This document shows, piece after piece, positions 6,387-64,000 of a DNA stretch of 64,000 bases (position 1 is its first letter; each line of letters opens with the position of its first letter). Both the position numbers and the translations under genes were made by a program. Source of the DNA: Collimonas humicola (GTDB lineage Bacteria; Pseudomonadota; Gammaproteobacteria; Burkholderiales; Burkholderiaceae_D); assembly GCF_018304945.1 (NCBI RefSeq), contig NZ_JAGQEE010000008.1, positions 248,001 to 312,000 of the forward strand. Reading direction: 5' to 3'. The notes beneath the pieces were generated by a model that searched no databases, was not told the origin of the DNA, and saw only the letters and a list, made by a program, of their open reading frames with translations.

Positions 6387-7943
6387 ATGACCACTCTAGC
6401 CACCCTGACCACGATCAAGCAAGAAGACCTCATCGAGTCGGTAGCCGCTGCGCTCCAGTACATCAGCTACTACCATCCCGTCGACTACATCCAGCACCTG
6501 GCGCGCGCCTACGAGCAGGAACAGAATCCTGCCGCCAAGGACGCGATCGCGCAGATCCTGACCAACTCGCGCATGTGCGCCGAAGGCAAGCGGCCGATCT
6601 GCCAGGACACCGGCATCGTCAACGTGTTCCTGAAGATCGGCATGGACGTGCGCTTCGAAGGCTTCAAGGGATCGATCACCGACGCCGTCAACGAAGGCGT
6701 GCGGCGCGGTTACCTGAACCCGGACAACATGCTGCGCGCCTCGATCGTGGCGGACCCGCAGTTCGAGCGCAAGAACACCAAGGACAACACGCCGGCCGTG
6801 GTGCACATGGAACTGGTGCCCGGCAATACCGTGGACGTGCAGATCGCGGCCAAGGGCGGCGGTTCGGAAAACAAGACCAAGTTCGTGATGCTCAATCCTT
6901 CCGATTCGCTGGTCGACTGGGTCATGAAGACCGTGCCGACCATGGGCGCCGGCTGGTGCCCGCCAGGCATGCTCGGCATCGGCATCGGCGGCACCGCCGA
7001 ACGGGCGATGCTGATGGCCAAGCAGGTGTTGATGGAAGATATCGACATGTACGACCTGCTCAAGCGCGGCCCGCAAAACAAGACGGAAGAACTGCGCATC
7101 GAACTGTTCCAGAAAGTGAACTCGCTGGGCATCGGCGCGCAAGGACTGGGCGGCCTGACCACCGTGCTGGACGTCAAGATCATGATGCACCCGACCCACG
7201 CGGCCTCCAAGCCGGTGGCGATGATCCCGAACTGCGCGGCGACCCGCCACGGCCATTTCGTGCTGGACGGCTCCGGCCCGGCCTATATGGAGCCGCCATC
7301 GCTGTCGGAATGGCCGGAAGTGCACTGGGTGCCGGACACCGAGAAATCAAAACGCGTCGATCTCAATACATTGACGAAGGAAGAAGTCGCATCGTGGAAG
7401 CCTGGCCAGACCCTGCTGTTGAACGGCAAGATGCTGACCGGCCGCGATGCCGCCCACAAGCGTATCCAGGAGATGCTGGCCAAGGGCGAGAAGCTGCCGG
7501 TCGATTTCACCAACCGCGTGATCTATTACGTCGGTCCGGTCGATCCGGTGCGCGATGAAGTGGTTGGCCCGGCCGGCCCGACTACTGCAACCCGCATGGA
7601 CAAGTTCACCGACATGATGCTGGAACAGACCGGCCTGATCTCGATGATCGGCAAGTCGGAACGCGGCCCGACCGCCATCGAATCGATCAAGAAGCACAAG
7701 TCGGCTTACCTGATGGCCGTCGGCGGCGCCGCTTACCTGGTGTCGAAGGCGATCAAGTCGGCGCAGGTGCTGGGCTTTGCCGACCTCGGCATGGAAGCGA
7801 TCTACGAGTTCGACGTCAAGGACATGCCGGTGACGGTAGCGGTCGATTCCAACGGCATCTCGGTGCACAACACCGGGCCGAAGGAATGGCAGGAAAAGAT
7901 CGCGCATGCAGCGCTGTCGAAAATCCCCGTGACCACCATCTGA
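6387..7943 (+). CDS. fumA: Fumarate hydratase, class I (iron-sulfur type)
   Basis: A 518-residue class I fumarase, which interconverts fumarate and malate in the TCA cycle with an oxygen-sensitive [4Fe-4S] cluster. The N-terminal alpha part holds the cysteine segments MCAEGKRPICQDTG and IPNCAATRHGHF, and a third cysteine occurs in GWCPPGMLG. The C-terminal beta part has GPVDPVRDEVVGPAGPTTATRMD. Both halves are in one chain, as in FumA/FumB. An AAAGAGA ribosome-binding stretch precedes the ATG. It is followed after 12 bases by murI, so the genes may form a YqhA-fumA-murI unit. Confidence 0.95.
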   Translation: MTTLATLTTIKQEDLIESVAAALQYISYYHPVDYIQHLARAYEQEQNPAAKDAIAQILTNSRMCAEGKRPICQDTGIVNVFLKIGMDVRFEGFKGSITDAVNEGVRRGYLNPDNMLRASIVADPQFERKNTKDNTPAVVHMELVPGNTVDVQIAAKGGGSENKTKFVMLNPSDSLVDWVMKTVPTMGAGWCPPGMLGIGIGGTAERAMLMAKQVLMEDIDMYDLLKRGPQNKTEELRIELFQKVNSLGIGAQGLGGLTTVLDVKIMMHPTHAASKPVAMIPNCAATRHGHFVLDGSGPAYMEPPSLSEWPEVHWVPDTEKSKRVDLNTLTKEEVASWKPGQTLLLNGKMLTGRDAAHKRIQEMLAKGEKLPVDFTNRVIYYVGPVDPVRDEVVGPAGPTTATRMDKFTDMMLEQTGLISMIGKSERGPTAIESIKKHKSAYLMAVGGAAYLVSKAIKSAQVLGFADLGMEAIYEFDVKDMPVTVAVDSNGISVHNTGPKEWQEKIAHAALSKIPVTTI

Positions 7944-51777: not shown

Positions 51778-52479
51778 ATGACTGTCACCCAAGATCTTTC
51801 GTTTATCACCCTTATTACCAACGCATCTGTATTAGTACAGCTGGTCATGGCGCTGCTGCTGGCGGTCTCTGTGATGAGCTGGACTTATATTTTCCGCAAG
51901 ATGTTCGCCATCCGCAGCGCGCGCCGCCAGACGGAAGAATTCGAACGTGCATTCTGGTCGGGCGGCAACCTGGCCACCTTGTACCAGGACGCTACCTCCA
52001 ACCGCCGCAAAGGCGCGAGCCGGACCGGCGCGCTGGAACGCATCTTCGAAGCCGGCATGGACGAGTTCAACAAGGTCAAGGCCTCGCTCGGCAGCAAAGG
52101 CGGCAACGACTCGGCCGCCCTGCTGGACGGCGCCCGGCGCGCGATGCGCGCGGCCTACCAGCGTGAGATGGATGCGCTGGAATCGCACCTGGCCTTCCTC
52201 GCCTCGGTCGGCTCGGTGTCGCCCTATGTCGGCCTGTTCGGCACCGTGTGGGGCATCATGAATGCGTTCCGCGGCCTGGCGAATGTGCAGCAAGCTACCC
52301 TGGCAGCCGTCGCGCCGGGTATCGCCGAAGCCCTGATCGCCACCGCCATCGGCCTGTTTGCGGCGATTCCTGCAGTGGTTGCCTACAACCGCTTCTCGCA
52401 CGACGTCGACCGCCTGGCGATCCGCTTCGAAAGCTTCATCGAAGAATTCTCCAACATCTTGCAACGTCAGGCCCGCTAA
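51778..52479 (+). CDS. tolQ: Tol-Pal system protein TolQ
   Basis: A 233-residue inner-membrane proton-channel subunit of the MotA/ExbB/TolQ family. Three hydrophobic helices are visible: near residues 18-38 (VMALLLAVSVMSWTYIFRKM), near 140-160 (SVSPYVGLFGTVWGIM) and near 175-200 (GIAEALIATAIGLFAAIPAV). It energises envelope constriction at division with TolR and TolA. The stop overlaps the tolR start (TAATG). Confidence 0.96.
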   Translation: MTVTQDLSFITLITNASVLVQLVMALLLAVSVMSWTYIFRKMFAIRSARRQTEEFERAFWSGGNLATLYQDATSNRRKGASRTGALERIFEAGMDEFNKVKASLGSKGGNDSAALLDGARRAMRAAYQREMDALESHLAFLASVGSVSPYVGLFGTVWGIMNAFRGLANVQQATLAAVAPGIAEALIATAIGLFAAIPAVVAYNRFSHDVDRLAIRFESFIEEFSNILQRQAR

Positions 52480-52910
52480 TGTCCGGCTCTTCCATGCGCG
52501 GTGGCCGCCCCCGCAAGTTCAAGGCGGAAATCAACGTCGTCCCGTATATCGACGTGATGATGGTGCTGCTGGTGATCTTCATGGTCTCGGCGCCGCTCAC
52601 CAATCCGAGCGTCATCAATTTGCCGAATGCGGCGAAATCGGCGACGCCGCCGACCGAATATATCGAGATCACCCTGAAGCCGGAGCAGCAGACCAGCGTG
52701 CGCATCAACGGCCAGAAGAGCGGCACCAGCGCCGCTGAAAGCGTGCCGCGCAACGGCCTGAAACGCAAGCTGCAAGCCCTGCACGCCGACAAGCCGGACA
52801 TGCCGGTGATGATTTCGGCCGACAAGGACATCAAATACGATGAAGTGATCCAGGTCATTTCCGAGGCCAAGATGCTTGGCATTAACCGCGTCGGACTGGC
52901 GACAAAGTGA
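52479..52910 (+). CDS. tolR: Tol-Pal system protein TolR
   Basis: A 143-residue ExbD/TolR protein with a short cytoplasmic tail, one helix (VMMVLLVIFMVSAPL) containing the channel Asp in VVPYIDVMMV, and a periplasmic domain. The ATG shares a base with the tolQ stop, indicating coupled translation. Confidence 0.95.
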   Translation: MSGSSMRGGRPRKFKAEINVVPYIDVMMVLLVIFMVSAPLTNPSVINLPNAAKSATPPTEYIEITLKPEQQTSVRINGQKSGTSAAESVPRNGLKRKLQALHADKPDMPVMISADKDIKYDEVIQVISEAKMLGINRVGLATK

Positions 52911-52920
52911 CGATCTGGTT

Positions 52921-53853
52921 ATGACAGGCAACTCCCCGTATTCCGTACCGAAAGAACCCGGCAGCATCCGCGCCATCATCCTTGCAGCGGCAGTGCATGC
53001 CGCCCTGTTTGCATTCCTGTGGTTCGGCATTCATTGGCAGAGCCAGCAGCCGATCGCCGTGGAAGCCGAAGTCTGGAGCCCCGACATCAAGGAAGCCGCG
53101 CCGCCGGCGCCGGAACCGACCCCGCTGCCGCAGCCTACGCCCGAGCCGAAACCGGAACCCGTGGTGCAGGAAACCGCGCCGCCGAAGGTGGTGACGCCGC
53201 CGCAGCCGGATCCTGAAATCGCCCTGGAAAGGGAAAAGAAGCGCAAAGAACAGGAGCGCAAGGACCAGCAACGCCAGGAAGAACTTGAAAAACAACGGCA
53301 ATTGCAAAAAGAGCAAGCTGAAGAAGAGCGCAAGGACAAGCTGAAAGCGGAAGCCGAGCAAAAAGCCGCCAAGGACAAGGCCGCTGCCCAGGAAAAGCAG
53401 AAGCAGGAAGCCGCCAGGAAACTGGAGGCCGACGCCGCCAAGAAGAAACAGGCTGCCGATGCCGCCGCTGAGACCAAGCGCCGCAGCGACGAAATGAAGC
53501 GCATGCTGGGCCAGGCGGTCGGCAACGGCGCCGCCAACAGCAGCGGCACTGCGGCCCAGTCGCAAGGGCCGCGCGGCGATCCTGGCTATGGACAAAAGGT
53601 AGGCGCCAAGATCAAGTCGAACATCATCTTTAATGTGCCTGAAAGCCTGGCCGGAAACCCCGACGTGCAATTCGATGTCCAATTGCTTCCCGACGGCTCG
53701 GTGGCCAGCATTCGACTGAAGAAATCCTCCGGGGTATCCGGCTTTGACGAAGCGGTGAAACGCGCAATCGAGAAATCGGCGCCTTATCCGAAAGACAAGA
53801 CCGGTACTGTACCATCCAGCTTTATCGGAACTCATAGACCGAAAGATCAGTAA
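52921..53853 (+). CDS. tolA: Cell envelope protein TolA
   Basis: A 310-residue protein: one N-terminal helix (AIILAAAVHAALFAFLWFG), a Pro/Glu-rich segment (PAPEPTPLPQPTPEPKPEP), a long charged coiled helix rich in Lys, Glu, Gln and Ala (about 100-205), then a TonB-like C-terminal domain with DVQFDVQLLPDGSVASIRL. It links TolQR to Pal and TolB. Start 10 bases after tolR. Confidence 0.94.
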   Translation: MTGNSPYSVPKEPGSIRAIILAAAVHAALFAFLWFGIHWQSQQPIAVEAEVWSPDIKEAAPPAPEPTPLPQPTPEPKPEPVVQETAPPKVVTPPQPDPEIALEREKKRKEQERKDQQRQEELEKQRQLQKEQAEEERKDKLKAEAEQKAAKDKAAAQEKQKQEAARKLEADAAKKKQAADAAAETKRRSDEMKRMLGQAVGNGAANSSGTAAQSQGPRGDPGYGQKVGAKIKSNIIFNVPESLAGNPDVQFDVQLLPDGSVASIRLKKSSGVSGFDEAVKRAIEKSAPYPKDKTGTVPSSFIGTHRPKDQ

Positions 53854-53856
53854 GCC

Positions 53857-55140
53857 ATGAAAAACAAATTGCATCAAATATTCGCAATCCTCGGACTTGC
53901 AGTGAGCGCGCTGGTTGCCAGCGTCCCGGCCAGCGCCCAGCTGCGCATCGAAACCTCCGGCGTCGGCGCCAGCCAGATCCCGATCGCCATCGCCGGCTTC
54001 AGCGATGAAAACCTGGCGCCGCAACAGGTCACCGCCATCATCAAGGCCGACCTCGCGCGCAGCGGCTTCTTCAAGATCATCGATACCGGCGACGTCATCT
54101 CCGAAGCCAGCCAGGTCAACCTGCCCGACTGGAAAGCGCGCGGCGCCGACGCACTGGTGGTCGGCAGCGTGCAGCGCCTGGCCGACGGCCGTTTCGATGT
54201 GCGCTACCGCTTGCTCGATACCGTCAAATCGTCCCAGCTGTCAGCCCTGGCGATGGCTGCCGCGCCGCAGTACACGCGGGTCACCGCCCACAAGATCGCC
54301 GATGACATCTACGAAAAACTGATCGGCGCGCGCGGCGCTTTCGCTACCCGCATCGCCTACATCATCAAGGCCGGCAAGGAATACCGGCTGGAAGTGGCAG
54401 ACTCCGACGGCGAAGGCACGCAAGTGGCCTTGCGCTCCAACGAACCGATCATCTCGCCGGCCTGGTCGCCGGACGGCACCAAGGTGGCCTACGTTTCGTT
54501 TGAAGCGAAGAAGCCGGTGGTGTATGTGCAGAACCTGATCACCAAACAGCGCATCGTGGTGGCCAACTACAAGGGCAGCAACTCGGCGCCGTCGTGGTCG
54601 CCGGACGGCAGCAAGCTGGCGATTGCGCTGGCGCGCGACGGCCTGACCCAGGTCTACGTGGTCAACAGCGACGGCGGCAACCTGCGCCGCCTGACCCAGA
54701 CCAACGGCATCGACACTGAACCGCAATTTTCGGCTGACGGCCAGAGCATCTACTTCACCAGCGACCGCAGCGGCGGCCCGCAAATCTACAAGATGAGCGC
54801 CAACGGCGGCGACGCCCAGCGCGTGACCTTCGGCGGCAGCTACAACATCAGCCCGCGGATTTCACCGGACGGCAAGACATTAGCGTATATTTCGCAGCGC
54901 GGCGGCCGCTTCCAGCTGTATGCGCTGGACCTGACCAACAACCAGGAGCAGCGTTTGTCGGATACGGTCAAGGATGAATCCCCAAGTTTTTCACCCAATG
55001 GCAAATACATCATGTACGCCACGGAATCAGGACGCCGCGGTTCGCTGGCGGTGGTCTCGGTTGACGGCCGCGTGAAACAGCGTTTAACTATGCAGGCAGG
55101 CGATATACGGGAGCCTACTTGGGGTCCTTTCATGAAATAA
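53857..55140 (+). CDS. tolB: Tol-Pal translocation protein TolB
   Basis: A 427-residue periplasmic protein with a signal peptide ending VPASAQ, an N-terminal alpha/beta domain and a C-terminal beta-propeller with repeated SPDG blades (PAWSPDGTKVAYVSF, PSWSPDGSKLAIAL, PRISPDGKTLAYIS, PSFSPNGKYIMYA). It starts three bases after the tolA stop. Confidence 0.97.
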   Translation: MKNKLHQIFAILGLAVSALVASVPASAQLRIETSGVGASQIPIAIAGFSDENLAPQQVTAIIKADLARSGFFKIIDTGDVISEASQVNLPDWKARGADALVVGSVQRLADGRFDVRYRLLDTVKSSQLSALAMAAAPQYTRVTAHKIADDIYEKLIGARGAFATRIAYIIKAGKEYRLEVADSDGEGTQVALRSNEPIISPAWSPDGTKVAYVSFEAKKPVVYVQNLITKQRIVVANYKGSNSAPSWSPDGSKLAIALARDGLTQVYVVNSDGGNLRRLTQTNGIDTEPQFSADGQSIYFTSDRSGGPQIYKMSANGGDAQRVTFGGSYNISPRISPDGKTLAYISQRGGRFQLYALDLTNNQEQRLSDTVKDESPSFSPNGKYIMYATESGRRGSLAVVSVDGRVKQRLTMQAGDIREPTWGPFMK

Positions 55141-55191
55141 TCAGGTTTTACTTTGAATCGACGTTCGTTTCCCACTCTGGAGAATTAAAAA

Positions 55192-55710
55192 ATGCTAAAT
55201 ATCAGAAACTTTGCCCTTATCGTCGCCAGCGCCATCTTGCTGGCTGCCTGCTCATCCCCTGTCAAGCTGGACGACAAGGCGGTTCCGGTAGTCGATAGCG
55301 GCGCCACCGGCGCGGACGCACGTTCGGTCAATACGGTTGACGCCGGCTCCAGCGATCCGCTGAACCAGCCAGGCGGCATCCTCTCCAAGCGCAGCATCTA
55401 CTTTGATTTCGACAGCTACATCGTCAAGGACGAGTTCAAGTCGGTGGTCGAAGCGCACGCCCAGTACCTGAACAGCCACAAGAACCGCAAGATCATCATC
55501 CAAGGCAATACCGATGACCGCGGCGGCCGTGAGTACAACCTGGCGCTGGGACAAAAGCGTGCTGAAGCGGTTCGCAAGGCGCTGGTATTGTTAGGCGTAT
55601 CCGACACCCAGGTCGAAGCAGTCTCGCTGGGCAAGGAAAAACCTAAGGCCCTCGGCAGCGACGAAGCGTCCTACGCTGAAAACCGCCGTTCAGATATCGT
55701 TTATCAATAA
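55192..55710 (+). CDS. pal: Peptidoglycan-associated lipoprotein Pal
   Basis: A 172-residue outer-membrane lipoprotein. The lipobox LLAAC places the lipidated cysteine near residue 20. The C-terminal OmpA-like domain (IYFDFDSYIVKDEF, GNTDDRGGREYNLALGQKRA) binds peptidoglycan diaminopimelate. Start supported by GGAG upstream. Overlaps the next start as TAATG. Confidence 0.97.
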   Translation: MLNIRNFALIVASAILLAACSSPVKLDDKAVPVVDSGATGADARSVNTVDAGSSDPLNQPGGILSKRSIYFDFDSYIVKDEFKSVVEAHAQYLNSHKNRKIIIQGNTDDRGGREYNLALGQKRAEAVRKALVLLGVSDTQVEAVSLGKEKPKALGSDEASYAENRRSDIVYQ

Positions 55711-56459
55711 TGATGCGGACGTTCTTCAAAGCTACGATGACCGCGGCCATGCTGGCCGCGGTTTTTTCCGCTCCGACCGCCCGCGCCGGGCTGTTTGACG
55801 ACGATGAAGCACGTCGGGCGATATTAGACATACGCGCCAAGATTGACGCGGTCAATGCACGGGTCGACGCCAAGGCGGACAAAACCAGTTCGCTCAGCCT
55901 GTCGGACCAGAATGAGCGCCTGAATCAGGAGCTGGCCAAGCTGCGTGGACAGATCGAAGTGCTCACCAATGAGCTGGCCAACACGCAGCAGCGCCAGAAA
56001 GATTTCTACGTCGACCTGGATACGCGCCTGCGCAAGCTGGAACCGCAAAAGGTCAGCGTCGACGGCCAGGAAGTCAACATCGGCGCCAACGACCAGAAAA
56101 CTTATGACGCAGCGCTGGCGACCTTCAAGTCCGGCGACTACAAGGGTGCAGCCGCAGCCTTCTCCAGCTTTGTGCGCAGCAGCCCGGACTCCGGCCTGGC
56201 GCCATCGGCACAATACTGGCTGGGCAATGCCTACTATGCCCTGCGCGACTACAAGAATGCGATTGCAGCCCAACAGGTGGTCGTCACCAAATATGCCGAC
56301 AACCCCAAGGCCGCGGATGCATTGCTGAATATCTCCAGCAGCTACACCGAGCTGAAGAACAAGCCGCAGGCGAAGCGCGCGCTGGAGCAACTGCTGTCGC
56401 AGTATCCCAACACGCCGGCAGCGCAGACGGCAAAAGAACGCCTGGCCACGCTGAAGTAG
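55710..56459 (+). CDS. cpoB: Cell division coordinator CpoB (YbgF)
   Basis: A 249-residue periplasmic protein: signal peptide ending in APTARA, an N-terminal coiled coil (LSDQNERLNQELAKLRGQIE) that trimerises in homologues, and C-terminal TPR repeats (YDAALATFKSGDYKGAAAAF, APSAQYWLGNAYYALRDYKNA). It couples peptidoglycan synthesis to Tol constriction. Last gene of the tol-pal operon. Confidence 0.95.
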   Translation: MMRTFFKATMTAAMLAAVFSAPTARAGLFDDDEARRAILDIRAKIDAVNARVDAKADKTSSLSLSDQNERLNQELAKLRGQIEVLTNELANTQQRQKDFYVDLDTRLRKLEPQKVSVDGQEVNIGANDQKTYDAALATFKSGDYKGAAAAFSSFVRSSPDSGLAPSAQYWLGNAYYALRDYKNAIAAQQVVVTKYADNPKAADALLNISSSYTELKNKPQAKRALEQLLSQYPNTPAAQTAKERLATLK

Positions 56460-57122: not shown

Positions 57123-57395
57123 TCAGCCTGTGTAGGCACCCTTATACCAGCCTTCACCATCCCAGCACCACTCGGTCGTTTGGCTGCCAGTGGTTGCGTA
57201 GACGCGGATATGGATGGTGCTTCCGTTCAACCAGCTGGTTGCAGAGGCATTTTCACCAGGTTGCTTAAAAGCGCCTGTGTACCACCCCTTCGGTCCGTCG
57301 TAGCAACGTTCAGTGATTGTAGAGCCATTGGAAGTATAAACACGGATCGACGGCGAGCTGGTTCCCCATGAAACGGCGGCAGTTTGAGTTGACAT
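57123..57395 (-). CDS. Fucose-binding lectin of the RSL type
   Basis: A 90-residue protein nearly identical in length and layout to the Ralstonia solanacearum lectin RSL. Two internal repeats of about 45 residues each carry sugar-site elements: [19 protein letters not shown] with GWYTGAF, and [20 protein letters not shown] with GWYKGAY. Arg, Glu and Trp residues of the fucose pocket are conserved. RSL trimers form a six-bladed propeller with six fucose sites. No signal peptide, as in RSL. AGGAG lies upstream. It could bind fungal or plant glycans, which suits a soil bacterium living on fungi. Confidence 0.95.
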
Positions 57396-57957: not shown

Positions 57958-59310
57958 ATGAAGAATATATGCACGTTGCTGATACGCGCTGCGGCTGCCT
58001 TGTGGCTGATTATTCCTTTGGGCTTGATATCGAACGCCGGCGCCAATCCTCTTTTTGCAAGGCAAACCAGCCTGAAGTGCTCGTCCTGCCATACCATCTA
58101 TCCCGAGCTGACGCCGTTCGGCCGGAAATTCAAGCTGGGGGGATATACCTTGGGGGAACGCGAGAAGATTCCGCTGGCCTTCATGGCCATCGTCTCGCGC
58201 AACTCGATCAACAATAATACGGACAAATCCAGCGGCGACATGCTGTTCGCGAAGAACCGCGAATTGGTGGTCGAGGCAGCCAGCCTGTTTACCGGCGGGA
58301 AATTCACCGATTACGCCGGCGGCTTTGTCCAATGGACCTACAACAATATCAGCACCACCGACAACCAGAGATATTACGGGCACGGCGCGCTGGACAATAC
58401 CGATCTGCGGCTGGTGAAAATGACCGGCACGGAAGAAAAGCCGACGTTTTTCGGCCTGACCTTGCACAACAACCCTACCGTTCAAGACATCTGGAATACG
58501 ACGCCGGCCTGGAGCTTTCCATACTACAGCCCGACCATCGCCGGCCCGGGCCGCGGCGTGCCGACCTTCCTTGAGTCCGGCGTGCGGGTGGCGGGCATCG
58601 GCGCCTACACTTACCTGTTCGATGCGCTCTATCTGGAGGCAGCCTCGTATCAAACCGCCAAAGGTCCGCTTTCGGTTTTACGCTCGGGTACGCCCGATGC
58701 GCAAAGAGTATCGCTGTCAGGCGGCAATCCTTACTTGCGCGCGACCTACACCTTCGGCAGCGACCATCAGAATTTCACCATCGGCGCCACCGCCGCCCGG
58801 GTGGCGATGAAGGCGCCGGACATGACTCCCCAGGGCGACCGCTTCACCGACCTGGGATTCGACGCCACCTATCAGTTCTTCAGCAAGGACGACCTCCATA
58901 TTGTCACCGCCATGGCTTCCACCATCCACGAGAAAGCCGATTGGCGGGCCGGCTTCCCGAACGGGAACAACGATAATCCGAGCTCGAACCTGCGCTCCAC
59001 CCGCGCCAAGCTCAGTTATCTATATGACCGTACCTACGGCATTACGGGCGCTGTGTTCAAGCTCACCGGCGATGCCGACTTCGCGCGATTCCCCACCAAC
59101 AATGGCAAGCCGGACACCGCGGGCTATATCGTCGAACTGAATTACTGGCCGCACTACGTTTTCAACTGGGACCCGCAGGCGAACATCCGCTTCGGGCTGC
59201 AATACACCGGCTATACGAAATTCAATGGCAGTAAAACGAATTACGACAGCACCCTGAGAGATGCCAAGGACAACAACACGCTTTACCTGTACGCCTGGCT
59301 CATGTTCTGA
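57958..59310 (+). CDS. Cyc2-like fused cytochrome c / outer-membrane porin
   Basis: A 450-residue exported protein. After a signal peptide (LWLIIPLGLISNAGA) the mature N terminus reads FARQTSLKCSSCHTIYPELT, then PFGRKFKLGGYTL: one CxxCH heme site followed at once by the segment typical of Cyc2 proteins. The remaining 390 residues are beta-strand rich, with alternating aromatic patterns and a terminal phenylalanine (YLYAWLMF), as in a porin of about 16 strands. Cyc2 passes electrons from Fe(II) outside the cell through the outer membrane via the heme in the pore. GGGGAG precedes the ATG. A HiPIP gene follows 94 bases later. Whether iron is the donor here is inference; the family contains distant members of unknown role. 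Confidence 0.82.
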   Translation: MKNICTLLIRAAAALWLIIPLGLISNAGANPLFARQTSLKCSSCHTIYPELTPFGRKFKLGGYTLGEREKIPLAFMAIVSRNSINNNTDKSSGDMLFAKNRELVVEAASLFTGGKFTDYAGGFVQWTYNNISTTDNQRYYGHGALDNTDLRLVKMTGTEEKPTFFGLTLHNNPTVQDIWNTTPAWSFPYYSPTIAGPGRGVPTFLESGVRVAGIGAYTYLFDALYLEAASYQTAKGPLSVLRSGTPDAQRVSLSGGNPYLRATYTFGSDHQNFTIGATAARVAMKAPDMTPQGDRFTDLGFDATYQFFSKDDLHIVTAMASTIHEKADWRAGFPNGNNDNPSSNLRSTRAKLSYLYDRTYGITGAVFKLTGDADFARFPTNNGKPDTAGYIVELNYWPHYVFNWDPQANIRFGLQYTGYTKFNGSKTNYDSTLRDAKDNNTLYLYAWLMF

Positions 59311-59404
59311 CAGCCGCCAGGCGTATTTTCCAAACCGTAGTGCGGGCGTAACGGATAGATGCGGGCAATCCAGGCTGGCCCATTTTATTCGAAGAGGAAA
59401 CGCC

Positions 59405-59692
59405 ATGAACCAAGAGAAAAAAACATCGCGCCGCATTATGCTATGCCGCAGCGGCGCTGTGCTGGGAGCGATCATCCTGACTCCTCTCGCGACGCACTCG
59501 CCGCCTGCCCATGCAGGCTCCACGAAAAAAGGCATGCTGCATTACCAGGATAGCCCCAAGGATGGAAGGATGTGCGCCGACTGCGCCGCGTACACACCGC
59601 CGCCGTCGTCGGACCAAGGCACCGGCACCTGCAAAATCGTGGAAGGCCCGGTCAATCCCCAAGGCTGGTGCATGGCATACTCGCACCGCTGA
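59405..59692 (+). CDS. High-potential iron-sulfur protein (HiPIP)
   Basis: A 95-residue protein with a Tat-like leader (SRRIMLCRSGAVLGAIILT) ending near PPAHAG. The mature part has the four cluster cysteines in HiPIP spacing: RMCADCAAYT, GTCKIVEGP and GWCMAYSHR. HiPIPs are periplasmic one-electron carriers at high potential. GAGGAAA supports the ATG. Lying just behind the cytochrome-porin, it is the natural periplasmic acceptor, as HiPIP Iro is proposed to be in Acidithiobacillus. Confidence 0.93.
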   Translation: MNQEKKTSRRIMLCRSGAVLGAIILTPLATHSPPAHAGSTKKGMLHYQDSPKDGRMCADCAAYTPPPSSDQGTGTCKIVEGPVNPQGWCMAYSHR

Positions 59693-59817: not shown

Positions 59818-60573
59818 TCATTCCAGCGAAATTGCCGAGCTGTCAGGCGGCTTTTTGGAAGACAGGTCCGGCGACAACGCCGGACTGCCGGCCGCTCCGT
59901 TGGCGCTGTGCGAGGAATGGTTGACATGCTCGATCAAGCCCATGTCCAGGGCCATCAGGATCAGCTCAGCCGAATTGTGCAGACCGAGCTTGTGCATCAG
60001 ATTGGCGCGATGCTTTTCGACGGTCTTGGCGCTGATATTGAGAAATTCGCCGGTCATGCGATTGGTGCGTCCCTCCGCCACCAGCTTGAGGATGCTGCGT
60101 TCGCGCGCGGTGAGCTTGTTCCAGGGCGTCACCGCCTTCGGCGCATCGCATCGATGCAGGAAATCGTTGATCAAGTGCATGGAGACGTCGGGGCAAATAT
60201 ATTTCTTGCCGCCGATGACCGTCTGGATCGCAATCACGAACTCATCGTACGAAGCATCTTTCAAGACATAGCCGTCCGCCCCCACCCGCAGCGCTTCCGT
60301 CACATATTCGTCGGTCTTGTAGACCGTCAGCACAAGCACGCGGATATCCGGCACGCGCCTTTTGATCTGCGCCGTAGCCTCGATGCCGTTCATGCCAGGC
60401 AGGGACAGGTCCATGAGGATCATGTCCGGACGCAACGACAATGCCTCGCGGATGGCTTCTTTTCCTTCGCGTGCTTCGCCCACCACCTCATAGTTGGGCA
60501 ACGCCGTGATCATTGACCGCAGCCCGTGCCGTAGCAGATTGTGGTCCTCGACTATCAGAATTCGGTAGGTCAT
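59818..60573 (-). CDS. LuxR/NarL-type response regulator
   Basis: A 251-residue two-domain regulator: receiver with VEDHNLLRHGL and the phosphorylated Asp in MILMDLSLPGMNG, conserved Lys in GYVLKDAS, then a LuxR helix-turn-helix (LTARERSILKLVAEGRTNRM, ISAKTVEKHRANLMHKLG). A 30-residue serine-rich tail is extra. It overlaps the upstream pseudopilin gene by four bases (ATGA), so it is made with the secretion genes. No kinase gene lies nearby. Confidence 0.94.
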   Translation of the reverse strand: MTYRILIVEDHNLLRHGLRSMITALPNYEVVGEAREGKEAIREALSLRPDMILMDLSLPGMNGIEATAQIKRRVPDIRVLVLTVYKTDEYVTEALRVGADGYVLKDASYDEFVIAIQTVIGGKKYICPDVSMHLINDFLHRCDAPKAVTPWNKLTARERSILKLVAEGRTNRMTGEFLNISAKTVEKHRANLMHKLGLHNSAELILMALDMGLIEHVNHSSHSANGAAGSPALSPDLSSKKPPDSSAISLE

Positions 60574-61112
60574 GGCTTTCCTCCGCTGGCTACGGGTGGA
60601 TGCGACAATGGCGACGGCAATTTGCGGCTGGTTTTCCCCGATACAGGTGGACTAAACAGGAATCTCCATTGATTGTAGGTCTCAAATCCCTCAAATGCAC
60701 TATCGGCGCGAGAAAAACCGCTGCGTTTGATGGTCGGCGTTGTAGAACTGCTGACTACGCCGCTGATTTGTTCGCCATTGCGCAGCAATTCAAATGGCTG
60801 GCCGGTGACCGGATCCGCATAGGCGCGCCGCAAATGCCGTACTGGCACCGGGAAACGCTGATCTTCAACCAGGTCGTCAATGCTCGTCGGCAGCGTCTTG
60901 CCGGCCCCGGGCGTGGCGTAATAGTAGTGTTCGATCGCCAGCCGGTACTGGTCGCCGACATACAGCAACTCCGCCTCGGTCTCGCGCTGCCGTTCGAACG
61001 ACCAGACTTCGACCGCCCCCATCAGCGCCACAGCCATCAGCGCCAGGGTCAGCAGCAGCGCCAGCAAGACGATGCCGCGTGCGGGAAGCTTAATTCGTGG
61101 TTGCGCTAACAT
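60570..61112 (-). CDS. Pseudopilin-like protein
   Basis: A 180-residue protein with a short basic leader then a single N-terminal helix ARGIVLLALLLTLALMAVAL and a following amphipathic region (VGDQYRLAIEHYYYA), as in general-secretion pseudopilins. It has no Glu at position five of the presumed mature helix, which is unusual and resembles GspK-like or modified minor pseudopilins. It overlaps the preceding gene by 23 bases and the response regulator by four. Confidence 0.75.
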   Translation of the reverse strand: MLAQPRIKLPARGIVLLALLLTLALMAVALMGAVEVWSFERQRETEAELLYVGDQYRLAIEHYYYATPGAGKTLPTSIDDLVEDQRFPVPVRHLRRAYADPVTGQPFELLRNGEQISGVVSSSTTPTIKRSGFSRADSAFEGFETYNQWRFLFSPPVSGKTSRKLPSPLSHPPVASGGKP

Positions 61113-61512
61113 TCTCGCTCCCCGCGGTCTTTGCCGCGCTCCGCACATCGTAAACCCCGCTCAGGGCGGGATCGATGGGAGCAATGGCAATCCAGTTAGG
61201 GCTCTCTGTCATCGGATCTACCGGGACGCTGCGCAAATAATGCTTCTGCACCAGTTCGTCGAGTGTTTCCGGATAGCGGCCCTGATCGCCGAAGAATTTG
61301 TCCAGCGCGTCGCGCATGGTTGCCAGGTTTTGCTGCTGCACCTTGACCTTGCCGTTATCAAGTGCGACGAAATAGCGCGGCACGGCGAGCGTCAGCAGCA
61401 GGCCGATCAGCGCCATGACGATCACCATTTCGATCAGCGTGAAGCCATGCCGGCAGCCGCCGGCCTTTTGTCCTGGATGCTTGCCGCGCAAGAGTGGGAA
61501 CGTTCGCAACAT
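61090..61512 (-). CDS. GspG-like pseudopilin
   Basis: A 140-residue prepilin: site CRHG/FTLIEMVIVMALIG, then a GspG-type body (QQQNLATMRDALDKFFGDQG, LVQKHYLRSVPVDPMT). The long leader before the Gly is unusual. The chosen ATG is two bases after the upstream stop. GspG-like proteins form the main rod of type II secretion pseudopili. Confidence 0.86.
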   Translation of the reverse strand: MLRTFPLLRGKHPGQKAGGCRHGFTLIEMVIVMALIGLLLTLAVPRYFVALDNGKVKVQQQNLATMRDALDKFFGDQGRYPETLDELVQKHYLRSVPVDPMTESPNWIAIAPIDPALSGVYDVRSAAKTAGSENVSATTN

Positions 61513-61514
61513 GG

Positions 61515-61985
61515 CTACCACTCCTTGTAGGCGATGCCGTTCAAGCCCTTGCCGGTCGAGAGCGACGCCACGTCATACACGTCGTTCCCCGGCACCGGGT
61601 CGGTAGGCGGACTGCCATAGCTGCGCAACGCCCAGGTTTGTTCCGCCGGCTGGGTTGGATCCGGGTAGAACGGGTCGCGCGGCACATGGCGCAGGAATAC
61701 CAGGCGGGAGTGATTCACATCCTTGGCATTTTCGACGCCGTTCACCAATATTTCCAAGGAGGGCGGATAGCCGGAATCGCCCGACTCCAGCGTAATCTGG
61801 CCGGTGTCGGCCGCGGTCTTGTAGTTATCCAGGGCGACGCGGATCTGGCGCAAGGCCAGTTTCAGCTCGGTTTCCTTCAGGCGGGTCGCCGAAATTTCGT
61901 AGAGCGGCAACGCGACCAGCGCCACTAGGCCTACCAAGGCCAGCGTGATGACCAGCTCTATGAGCGTAAATCCGCGCGTTTTCAT
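61515..61985 (-). CDS. Pseudopilin with typical prepilin site
   Basis: A 156-residue prepilin: MKTRG/FTLIELVITLALVG, then ELKLALRQIRVALDNYKTAAD and a GspG-like calcium-loop style C terminus (GSPPTDPVPGNDVYDVASLS). Overlaps the secretin stop by four bases, so it is coupled to it. Probably a second rod or tip subunit of the same machine. Confidence 0.87.
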   Translation of the reverse strand: MKTRGFTLIELVITLALVGLVALVALPLYEISATRLKETELKLALRQIRVALDNYKTAADTGQITLESGDSGYPPSLEILVNGVENAKDVNHSRLVFLRHVPRDPFYPDPTQPAEQTWALRSYGSPPTDPVPGNDVYDVASLSTGKGLNGIAYKEW

Positions 61986-64000
61986 GGCTCGATCTTCAGC
62001 TTCAGCGGTTGTGGCCGGGAGATGTTGCGCAGAGCGCCGCCGCTCATGCCAAGCTGCGCCAGCTGCATCTCCACCGTTGTCTGCCTGCTCGATACCTTGG
62101 CGGCGAAGGTCAGGTTCATCAGCGCCCCCGAGCCGGCGAAGAACTTGCCGGCGTCGGCGTCCAGCGTCATGTTGACGCGGCCGGCGGCGTCGTTGACGGT
62201 CGGATCGATGTTATTGACGCCGACCCGGCTGCTGACCGCTCCAGGGCTGGCGCCGACAAAGGACAGCACGCGCGGATCGTAGAGGATAAAGAATGGCAGC
62301 GAATGAACGCCATTGAAACTTGAAGCGTTCAAAGTGACCTTGAACTGATCTCCCGCCTTGACGCTGTCAAGCTTGCTCCAGGTGATCTGCGGCCTGCCGC
62401 CGGCACTGTTAGCGCTACCGTCGGCGCCGCTATCCCCGCTGCCTGGCGCCGGGCTTGCTGCCGGACTTGCCGATTGAGCGCTTTTGTCTGCTGCAGCAAC
62501 AGCCGGCATGCCGGCGGCAACCATGACCGGTGCGGCGTTTGCAGGCGGCGCAGCGGCGCTTGCTGCTGCGGGTATCTCCGCGGCCGCCGAACTGACCGGC
62601 ACGGCCGCCGGCGCAACCGCGGGCACCGCAGCTGCCGGCACACTATCCGGAGGCAGGGCCGCTGACTGATCGGTCGACGCCGGCGTGACAGGCTCCGGTA
62701 TCGGCACAGGCGCGGGCACAGGCGCAACCGCCGGCGGCGCAGGCATAGGTGCGGTTGATGGGTAGGCTCCATCCAGCGGCGGCGGATTGAGGACTTTCTC
62801 GACGCCTTGCGGCTGCGACGCCGACGGTGTCGGCGCGCTAGGCGACACGCCGTTCAGGATGGCTGGCGTGACCGGCGGCACCGTTGGCGCGGATACTGCG
62901 GCAGGCGGCGCCGGCGGTGTTACTGCTGCAGCCGGCACAGGTGCCGGTGCGGCGTCGGCGCGCGGCGCGTTACTGCTTACGCCGCTGCTGGAGCCCGACA
63001 CGCTGGAGATCGGATCAAGTCGGAACTGGCCCGAGTGAATCGTGGTTTCGGTGCCGGACCAGACATCGCGCATCGTGTCTTCGGCAATGCCTTGCGCGCG
63101 CAAGATGCGGGGCGTGATCGACAGCACGATCTCGGTCTTGGTGTGATCGCCGTTATGTTCCGAGAACAAGCGCCCGATGATCGGCAACTGGCCGAGGCCA
63201 GGAACCTTGGCGGCGGCATTGCGATCGGAATCGCTGATCAAGCCGCCCAGCACCTGGGTTTCGCCGTCGCGCAGGCGCAGGCTGGTGGTGGCGCTGCGGG
63301 TGCCGATCTGATAGGCGAGCGAGCCGGAAGGGCCTGAGATTTCCTTGACGATGTTGCTGACCTCCAGGTTCAGCTTGATGCCGACCTCGCCTTCCGGATA
63401 GACATGCGGTTCGGCTTCAAGCTTGATGCCGACGTCGATATACTGGATCGAGCCGGTGACCACCGAGGCGCCGGTTTGCACCGGCGTCACGGTATTGGTG
63501 ATGATAGGCACCTTGTCGCCGATCAGGATCTTCGCCTTTTCATGATCGCGCACGCGGATGCGCGGACTGGCCAGCAGGTTGGCGTCGGTATCCTGGAGCT
63601 TGAAGCCTATGCCCAGCGAGAACGGCGTGACCTGCAGCTGGCCGCGCGTCAGATCGCCGAGGGCGCCAAGGGTCAGCGTGCCGGCGGCCCCGGTCGGGGT
63701 CGATATGGTGGCGCTGTTGGGCCAGGTGATGCCAAGGTCGGTCAGGCGGTCGCGGGAAATTTCCAGCACTTCGACTTCCAGCATCACTTCGGCATCGGCC
63801 AGATCGTGGGCCGCGATGACCTTGGCGGCGACATCCAGCGCCTCCGGCGTATCGCGCAAGACCAGCGTGTTGGTGCGTTCGTCGACCAGGGCATCCTTGA
63901 TCTTCAGCACCGACTTGAGCACTGTCAGGATGTACTTCGCATCGCCGTTCGAAATATGGAAGGTGCGCACTTTCAGCTCTTGATATTCCTTTTGCTTGGC
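61982..64000 (-). CDS. Secretin with C-terminal cohesin-like domain (partial)
   Basis: The frame is open to the right edge, so the N terminus is missing; about 672 residues are visible. The N-side contains an N-domain end (RTFHISNGDAKYILTVLKS) and the secretin core (VMLEVEVLEISRDRLTDLGI, VGIKLNLEVSNIVKEISG, GLISDSDRNAAAKVPGLGQL, KTEIVLSITPRIL), as in GspD/PilQ/MshL. After a roughly 200-residue Pro/Ala linker comes a beta-rich domain (VKAGDQFKVTLNASSFNGVH, FFILYDPRVLSFVGASPGAV, NMTLDADAGKFFAGSGALMN) with the pattern of a cohesin fold. A secretin carrying a cohesin domain is unusual. Pseudopilin genes follow on the same strand. Confidence 0.88.
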   Translation of the reverse strand, partial: AKQKEYQELKVRTFHISNGDAKYILTVLKSVLKIKDALVDERTNTLVLRDTPEALDVAAKVIAAHDLADAEVMLEVEVLEISRDRLTDLGITWPNSATISTPTGAAGTLTLGALGDLTRGQLQVTPFSLGIGFKLQDTDANLLASPRIRVRDHEKAKILIGDKVPIITNTVTPVQTGASVVTGSIQYIDVGIKLEAEPHVYPEGEVGIKLNLEVSNIVKEISGPSGSLAYQIGTRSATTSLRLRDGETQVLGGLISDSDRNAAAKVPGLGQLPIIGRLFSEHNGDHTKTEIVLSITPRILRAQGIAEDTMRDVWSGTETTIHSGQFRLDPISSVSGSSSGVSSNAPRADAAPAPVPAAAVTPPAPPAAVSAPTVPPVTPAILNGVSPSAPTPSASQPQGVEKVLNPPPLDGAYPSTAPMPAPPAVAPVPAPVPIPEPVTPASTDQSAALPPDSVPAAAVPAVAPAAVPVSSAAAEIPAAASAAAPPANAAPVMVAAGMPAVAAADKSAQSASPAASPAPGSGDSGADGSANSAGGRPQITWSKLDSVKAGDQFKVTLNASSFNGVHSLPFFILYDPRVLSFVGASPGAVSSRVGVNNIDPTVNDAAGRVNMTLDADAGKFFAGSGALMNLTFAAKVSSRQTTVEMQLAQLGMSGGALRNISRPQPLKLKIEP

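Follow-up and report, generated by a model that had tools for sequence, protein, structure and literature searches.

A Cyc2-type cytochrome-porin gene paired with a HiPIP gene and linked to a secretion and multicopper-oxidase module in Collimonas humicola

A stretch of 64,000 nucleotides from Collimonas humicola (contig NZ_JAGQEE010000008.1, positions 248,001 to 312,000; hereafter the window) carries a gene for a fused cytochrome-porin of the Cyc2 superfamily (57958..59310, plus strand, stop codon included), followed by a gene for a high-potential iron-sulfur protein (HiPIP; 59405..59692, plus strand). Throughout the clade of this porin, the HiPIP replaces the diheme cytochrome that is usually encoded at that place, and the pair is linked to a module of genes for secretion and copper proteins; both points are new here. 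With a probability of roughly 0.5, we read the pair as an extracellular electron-uptake line, probably drawing on Fe(II) and feeding the HiPIP, which together with the module would form a metal-oxidising surface system in a heterotroph. An initial annotation of the window had reported a Cyc2-like cytochrome-porin with a HiPIP at these positions, and both frames, the motif and the HiPIP match proved to be real.

The porin has the Cyc2 signature and a predicted barrel

The porin, of 450 amino acids, was recognised by its open frame, by homologs in Collimonas, Cupriavidus and a Ralstonia metagenome-assembled genome (MAG) that share 64-92% identity with it, and by its place in the trees described below. 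Its N terminus is hydrophobic (best 15-residue Kyte-Doolittle mean 2.18, versus 1.04 elsewhere in the protein), and residues 1-28 (57958..58041, plus strand) are a predicted signal peptide with a putative cleavage place. There follow, in the order ANPLFARQT-SLK-CSSCH-TIY-PEL, the published Cyc2 mark ANPLFARQT (residues 29-37, 58042..58068, plus strand), the heme c site CSSCH (residues 41-45, 58078..58092, plus strand) and PEL; the C-terminal residue is Phe. Both Cys and the His of CSSCH are invariant in a 17-row alignment (A1), and the CXXCH at residue 41 is the only one in the protein. These features agree with the mark given in PMC8406198, AXPXFAR[Q/K][T/Y] upstream of CXXCH with PXL downstream, and with a family definition of a single heme and at least 365 amino acids. 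The same paper puts the signature '5 amino acids upstream' of CXXCH; the gap is 3 residues here and likewise in six other porins compared.

A search of all six frames of the window found the signature with downstream PXL a single time, and none of 60 first-order Markov copies of the window contained it. The ratio of nonsynonymous to synonymous substitution rates (dN/dS), calculated for 21 pairs from seven of the eight clade members with some dS above 1, was 0.07-0.23 for the porin and 0.14-0.30 for the HiPIP, which suggests purifying selection on both. A chance frame was rejected for the porin because the dN/dS values and the Markov copies contradict it. A plain cytochrome or a plain porin was also rejected, since signature, fusion length and tree indicate the Cyc2 superfamily, as was a virus-borne copy, two scans of viral contigs having yielded no relative. 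The porin had no match in Pfam or NCBIfam, and Pfam likewise had none for any of 17 family members. In an alignment of the upstream regions, conserved bases precede the start codon and match no nameable site.

The beta-barrel that the initial annotation placed after the heme segment is consistent with prediction. In a structure model of poor quality, 16 strands of at least 8 residues follow the heme region, and the family is expected to have a C-terminal barrel of about 16 strands. Foldseek with this poor model returned 66 matches at E <=0.001, of which the 50 listed were all outer-membrane barrels by title except 5nup, which we take to be an outer-membrane barrel too. Another listed match was 5o78, the entry that PMC10654088 describes as closest to AfCyc2. 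Because the model is poor, these matches support the barrel class only; strand pattern, fold matches and C-terminal Phe together argue for a predicted barrel. By sequence, the porin found no solved structure at E 1 or better, and its profile gave two weak partial ones. Met76 is nearly invariant in the porin alignments and is a candidate for the second heme ligand.

The adjoining gene encodes an Iro-like HiPIP

Beyond an intergenic gap of 94 bases, the second gene encodes a 95-residue protein with a twin-arginine leader for export and four cysteines (Cys57/60/76/89) in the spacing of HIPIP cluster ligands. It matched Pfam HIPIP (PF01355) at 8.6e-7 and 29.6 bits, over the cut-off of 22, and solved HiPIPs were among its matches. 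NCBIfam Iro (NF041615) matched at 5.2e-14 with 52.3 bits, under the cut-off of 100, and we describe the protein, judging by its sequence, as Iro-like and do not file it as Iro.

The porin groups with presumed cluster 2 proteins

Six loci were found when named genomes were scanned with the porin: Collimonas antrihumi (92% identity), C. silvisoli (88%), Collimonas sp. OK307 (72%), two records of Cupriavidus basilensis (72 and 71%) and a Ralstonia MAG (65%). A single-protein search matched 19 of 60 genomes, the window's own included, and its full-length matches of at least 72% lay in four further genomes of the genus. The initial annotation had taken the host for a heterotrophic, Collimonas-like bacterium, in keeping with the nearest named match (C. 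antrihumi) and with the lack of any RuBisCO match in the window's genome. The clade of the window porin has eight members, from Collimonas, C. basilensis and the Ralstonia MAG, with support of 100 in both trees.

A 17-row porin profile matched 93 of 399 genomes of the order and 89 of 398 genomes of the phylum, the window's genome being in both samples. A family of another class, f79, whose genomes measure about 1.2-3.1 Mb, supplied 65 of the 89 phylum matches. Among 13 f79 loci inspected, 8 had FARQT and 5 had FARKY, and one genome (G433) had both types. These two types fit the account in PMC7029218 of Zetaproteobacteria with cluster 1 and cluster 3 Cyc2, and f79 is presumed to be Zetaproteobacteria; the families f24 and f37 are presumed to be Gallionellaceae. 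Cytochrome-porin relatives were also seen on plasmids: one of 33% identity on the Acidithiobacillus ferrooxidans plasmid CP084173.1 (L028, 4890-6257) is followed by a c-type cytochrome, with a transposase adjoining, and two Acidiphilium plasmids carry relatives at 33-35% identity.

Reference groups for the trees were set by gene order or distribution. The presumed acidithiobacilli are the family reached via G989, the only one of 369 genomes with a rusticyanin match over the cut-off; these anchors are presumptive. In the cluster 2 anchor L236, the genes behind the porin are, in turn, a diheme cytochrome gene, a cup-like gene (by eye), COX2, COX1 and, further on, one for a UbiA-family protein; the rus operon has that gene order (PMC10654088). 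L224 and L237 have a COX1 gene too. Loci of the L224, L236 and L237 type were assigned by gene order, and rusticyanin itself was not located in them.

Trees were made from 112 rows (16 of 128 removed as near-duplicates) and from 70 rows (58 of 128 removed). In both, the window clade lies on the rus-order side of the main split; the presumed cluster 1 and FARKY-type (RKY-type) proteins lie opposite, with support of 98/94 in the 70-row tree. Where the clade belongs within the cluster-2-like part is weakly settled: the sister group has support of 79/93, and bootstrap values at the deeper forks do not exceed 67. Full-length BLASTP of the window porin gave 8e-39 and 29.8% identity with L224, and 25.7% identity with L236. 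The porin groups with Cyc2 of presumed acidithiobacilli, as cluster 2 proteins do, and with that of Burkholderiales, on presumptive anchors. Motif, length, full-length similarity to the rus-order porins and the placement among Cyc2 proteins in the phylogeny sustain the Cyc2-type membership claimed for it earlier. A Cyc2-type protein was already known in this order, because cluster 2 cyc2 is reported from Leptothrix-Sphaerotilus genomes (PMC11412304, PMC13386937) and Burkholderiales are listed among the relatives of Acidithiobacillus Cyc2 (PMC10654088).

A HiPIP stands in place of the diheme cytochrome

The HiPIP gene lies directly downstream of the porin gene in 8 of 8 clade members (the window and 7 of 7 census rows), with no cytochrome there. 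The next gene was rightly taken for a HiPIP gene by the initial annotation, and its link to the porin is stronger than the window alone could show. The census took in 91 cluster-2-like rows outside the clade, near-duplicates still among them, and 1.5 kb downstream of each; one locus with porin, diheme cytochrome and HiPIP (L108) was lost to the filter on the place of CXXCH, and a broken locus (L165) was excluded. Directly downstream there was a diheme cytochrome in 51 of the 91 rows, another c-type cytochrome in 8 and neither in 32 (one of these with too little sequence). A HiPIP behind the cytochrome was present within 1.5 kb in 4 of the 51 rows, and a HiPIP without a cytochrome within 1.5 kb of the porin in 0 of the 91. 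For the rest of the census, a cytochrome adjoined the porin in 8/8 presumed acidithiobacilli, 1/7 loci of f24 and f37, and 0/13 loci of f79.

The genus Collimonas has a second, different cytochrome-porin, type B (L159, L161, L239), which is about 41% identical and is accompanied by a diheme cytochrome and a HiPIP that is hardly Iro-like. Both porin types occur in Collimonas sp. OK307 (G002), and G010 has a broken type-B copy. In three of the four type-B loci of the genus in the census, the order was porin, diheme cytochrome, then HiPIP. Scores with the Iro model were 52-63 bits for four clade HiPIPs versus 17 for the type-B locus L014. Among 15 genomes of the genus, the clade kind of HiPIP occurs in exactly the five with the window's kind of porin. 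In a Pfam HIPIP search of 35 genomes, these five held clade HiPIPs only, except for a type-B one in OK307; the ten genus genomes without this porin held no HiPIP or stronger-scoring ones.

In the excerpts examined, which cover part of the literature on these chains, no cyc2-HiPIP operon was found, and HiPIP/Iro and Cyc2 are treated as separate parts of acidophile chains (PMC4725956, PMC10879576, PMC12113256, PMC10715153, PMC10512742). A search for literature joining Collimonas and cyc2 found none, and the host names looked for in PMC12442345 had no match there.

Secretion and copper-protein genes form a module linked to the pair

About 21 genes beyond the pair make up the module, which lies mostly outside the porin-HiPIP coordinates and partly outside the window. 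Inside the window, all on the minus strand, it comprises a LuxR-type response regulator (59818..60573, by library matches and synteny), three pseudopilin-like proteins and a secretin. The first pseudopilin-like protein, psp_193 (60570..61148), has no Pfam match and was named as part of an apparatus like a type II secretion system (T2SS) by resemblance and place in the module; psp_143 (61090..61521) and psp_156 (61515..61985) have an N-methylation motif and were also placed by synteny. The secretin, of 941 amino acids with a C-terminal cohesin domain, occupies 61982..64000 and continues past the end of the window, as far as contig position 312807. Outside the window, T2SS E, F and G proteins follow the secretin on contig C23, and the remaining module is on contig C19. 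Its full content is the regulator, the pseudopilin-like proteins, the secretin, GspE, GspF, GspG, SCO1, a monoheme cytochrome c, a LolA-like protein and a similar one without Pfam match, a giant protein of about 2,870 amino acids, a PAS histidine kinase, two multicopper-oxidase proteins (MCO540 and MCO516, of 540 and 516 amino acids in G006) and others.

For comparison, 23 reference proteins, porin and HiPIP included, were searched in fetched neighbourhoods. The window's genome had 23/23, some at the end of C23 and the others at the start of C19. In the Ralstonia MAG and in each C. basilensis record 22/23 were matched, some at partial length and in differing gene orders; pair and module are linked on one contig in these two Cupriavidus records and one Ralstonia record, which extends the linkage to three genera. 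Relatives of the regulator at 51-56% identity were found on the porin contig of all three records. Seven tested genus genomes without the porin held no regulator relative at E 1e-40 or better, apart from a 41% match in G008.

The marker MCO516 was present in 5 of 5 genus genomes with the porin and in 0 of 10 without it, a coincidence with a chance of 1 in 3003 when descent is left uncorrected. In the order sample it matched in 7 of 399 genomes; the three full-length matches were all in porin-positive genomes.

MCO516 and MCO540 were both over the Pfam cut-offs for multicopper-oxidase domains. In the window's genome, MCO516 contains HTVHFHG and WHCHITPPEH, and MCO540 contains PHMHPGE, HPFHEHG and WHSHNE, motifs that we presume to serve as copper ligands. 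Going by these motifs, ligands that are usual in one chain look divided over two chains. At L292 (14705-17879), two multicopper-oxidase proteins with apparently divided ligand motifs adjoin the protein of about 2,870 amino acids. Solved relatives of the G006 copies were mostly of small laccase type and nitrite-reductase type (for MCO516 the best 60 of 82 matches, for MCO540 8 matches). The N terminus of the giant protein is related to MCO540 (23.6% over 406 columns, E 6.6e-6). A copper-ligated oxidase was rejected for the giant protein; because HxH occurs in 0 of 3 copies, we do not call it an enzyme. Genome G197 has the two multicopper proteins and a partial giant protein only, in about 39 kb. 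A search for literature combining multicopper oxidase, type II secretion, manganese oxidation and Leptothrix found none.

Discussion

A function for porin and HiPIP as a pair is plausible; we infer that heme is loaded, where the proteins lie, which way electrons run, what the substrate is and that energy is gained. As its family suggests, the porin would sit in the outer membrane as a barrel, with its single heme c close to the mouth on the periplasmic side. A dissolved external reductant, most probably Fe(II), would reach the heme from the pore and give up single electrons, which would be handed to the neighbouring HiPIP, the carrier at the place of the relatives' usual diheme cytochrome, and taken from there to a terminal oxidase. 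The pair would work beside the module, which may build a type II secretion-like apparatus with multicopper-oxidase proteins, both having been inherited or gained together. The Fe(II) oxidation and the role in mineral weathering suggested earlier are putative. PMC8406198 argues that Cyc2, having one small heme domain, can use Fe(II) in dissolved form only; weathering acids or secreted copper proteins would therefore have to supply the ion from minerals. Tentatively, the whole of about 23 genes could be seen as a conserved 'metal-oxidation island' of Burkholderiales from soil and metal sites, in which T2SS-like delivery to the surface of split-motif multicopper proteins and a giant adhesin-like protein would be combined with a porin-HiPIP route taking electrons of Fe(II) or Mn(II) inward to respiration rather than giving them up to oxygen, conserving energy in heterotrophs; in this full form we think it unlikely.

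Several observations weigh against electron uptake from Fe(II) by a pair and module acting together. For the porin itself, the structure prediction from seven sequences was poor (mean pLDDT 40.5, pTM 0.46, with a pLDDT of about 24 in the heme region), and the promoter scan found no sigma-70-like site. In the family, functional inference is safest in the neutrophilic iron-oxidiser clade, and much of clusters 2 and 3 is functionally unverified, with other functions possible (PMC8406198). Membership of the neutrophilic cluster 1 was rejected, since the 98/94 split places the window porin opposite both presumed groups. Cluster 1 Cyc2 (Mariprofundus PV-1, Gallionellaceae; membership of the sampled proteins is presumed) has the signature, the single heme and the fused porin in common with it, but identity to four presumed cluster 1 proteins was 18-20%, local and within the first ~110 residues, further stretches having E >=0.59. 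In the 112-row tree, the tree program flagged long branches meeting on the far side, a possible false join. L223 and L226, two of the presumed acidithiobacilli, have other genes (by eye) where L224, L225, L236 and L237 have cox.

The partnership of porin and HiPIP may likewise be less exclusive than the clade suggests. L143, on another branch outside the clade, has a HiPIP gene (6984-7268) 1.6 kb behind the porin, with no cytochrome detected by script. As the sequence of this HiPIP resembles the clade HiPIPs, the arrangement may extend beyond the clade, a hint that the pairing arose or spread elsewhere too. L027 and L130 have a HiPIP upstream of the porin and a diheme cytochrome downstream; G004 has two HiPIPs and no porin match, and G009 has a type-B porin and no HiPIP match. 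The module, too, occurs apart from the pair. Four genomes with partial MCO516 matches (G069, G138, G244, G295) were not porin-positive in the order sample. G213 has 20/23 reference proteins, with its porin half a megabase away beside a diheme cytochrome. A 41.5-kb stretch of the Cupriavidus metallidurans CH34 megaplasmid (L302), from a record without annotated features, has 20/23 at 7704-37420, without porin or HiPIP, and no porin match was found on that replicon at E 1e-5. The pair is therefore not essential to the module.

These two genomes with the module and without the linked pair, together with a patchy distribution in the genus (5/15) and a porin that is 72% identical to another Collimonas and to Cupriavidus alike, would fit pair and module as neighbours on a block-transferred island with no common function. 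The pair nevertheless stands with the module in three genera in three arrangements, and porin and module marker are found in the same five genus genomes; we hold a mere neighbourhood to be quite improbable.

The lack of a RuBisCO match makes autotrophy on iron unlikely, so that any energy gain would be auxiliary, in a heterotroph. A RuBisCO large-chain match was seen at L255 in OK307, the relative with both porin types (1 of 16 genomes searched). The same lack would suit a protective or iron-handling role, in which surface oxidation of Fe(II), Mn(II) or Cu(I) by the pair and the multicopper proteins would serve detoxification or iron scavenging and yield no useful energy; C. metallidurans keeps most of the module without the pair, and multicopper-oxidase Mn oxidation occurs in heterotrophs without a clear path of energy conservation (PMC9040806). 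A dedicated outer-membrane heme with a periplasmic carrier, however, would seem costly if oxygen takes the electrons outside, and we regard this role as unlikely. Electrons might also run the other way, the pair exporting them to Fe(III) or Mn(IV) minerals or another acceptor for iron nutrition or for electron disposal at low oxygen. For acidithiobacilli, PMC10715153 has Cyc2/Cyc1 isoforms cited in connection with Fe(III) reduction, and Collimonas mobilises iron (PMC12542777). Against export, a HiPIP, as a high-potential carrier (50-633 mV in those measured, PMC10879576), would be a poor outward donor at neutral pH, and the multicopper-oxidase proteins and SCO1 of the module would fit an oxic setting, which leaves the reverse direction rather doubtful.

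Electron uptake, our preferred reading, finds a close parallel in Acidithiobacillus Cyc2 of the rus operon (cluster 2), which shares with the window porin the signature, one CXXCH, PXL, a similar length, full-length similarity and the same side of the main split, the genomes compared being presumed kin of Acidithiobacillus. Unlike that operon, the window porin has no adjoining cytochrome, cup, cox or rusticyanin genes and has a HiPIP at the place of cyc1; its host, unlike Acidithiobacillus, is a Collimonas-like bacterium without a RuBisCO match. Acidithiobacillus Iro/HiPIP is the best NCBIfam match of four clade HiPIPs (52-63 bits), with a like twin-arginine leader and four Cys, but the clade HiPIPs stay under the 100-bit cut-off and adjoin a Cyc2-type gene, whereas iro lies downstream of the pet operon with its cytochrome b/b6 gene (PMC10654088). 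Operons of Cyc2 and diheme cytochrome in other Burkholderiales and in type B of Collimonas belong to the same superfamily and keep the order of porin then carrier; their carrier is the diheme cytochrome. Compared with Geobacter OmpB and the OxpG/Pul type II secretion as described in PMC3543383, the window system adds the linked fused cytochrome-porin and HiPIP. Leptothrix, likewise of the Burkholderiales, has cluster 2 cyc2 and, with mofA, Mn/Fe-linked multicopper oxidases (PMC11412304, PMC13386937); the excerpts of these accounts report presence in genomes and describe no linked HiPIP or secretion cluster.

Cyc2 homologs in organisms not known as iron oxidisers are called an open question in PMC8406198, and pair and module make a candidate metal-oxidising system that can be tested in a bacterium for which a life on iron is not known. 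Collimonas is a mineral-weathering genus, and multi-omics of Collimonas pratensis on biotite showed acidification, iron mobilisation, regulated cytochrome oxidases and a type II/III secretion gene that was up (PMC12542777). The main text of that paper has 0 occurrences of 'iron oxid', 'electron transfer', 'high-potential' and 'multicopper', and its biotite-induced secretion gene, NKI72191.1, could not be tied to the module. The split within the genus, five genomes with porin and marker and ten with neither, provides a natural comparison for heterotroph electron uptake from mineral Fe(II). Mn(II) lithotrophy via multicopper oxidases would need electrons to reach a periplasmic carrier (PMC9040806), and the linked heme porin with its HiPIP could provide such a path from multicopper oxidation.

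Neighbouring genes

The porin region is preceded by a Tol-Pal-like run (51778-56459, plus strand) with TolQ-, TolR-, TolA-, TolB-, Pal- and CpoB-like genes, recognised by eye from the list of open reading frames. Between this run and the porin gene, a small protein (57126-57395, minus strand) matched Pfam Fungal_lectin (fucose-specific) at 4.7e-13 and presumably resembles the Ralstonia solanacearum lectin RSL. In G006 (L238), too, a near-identical lectin-like gene precedes the porin.

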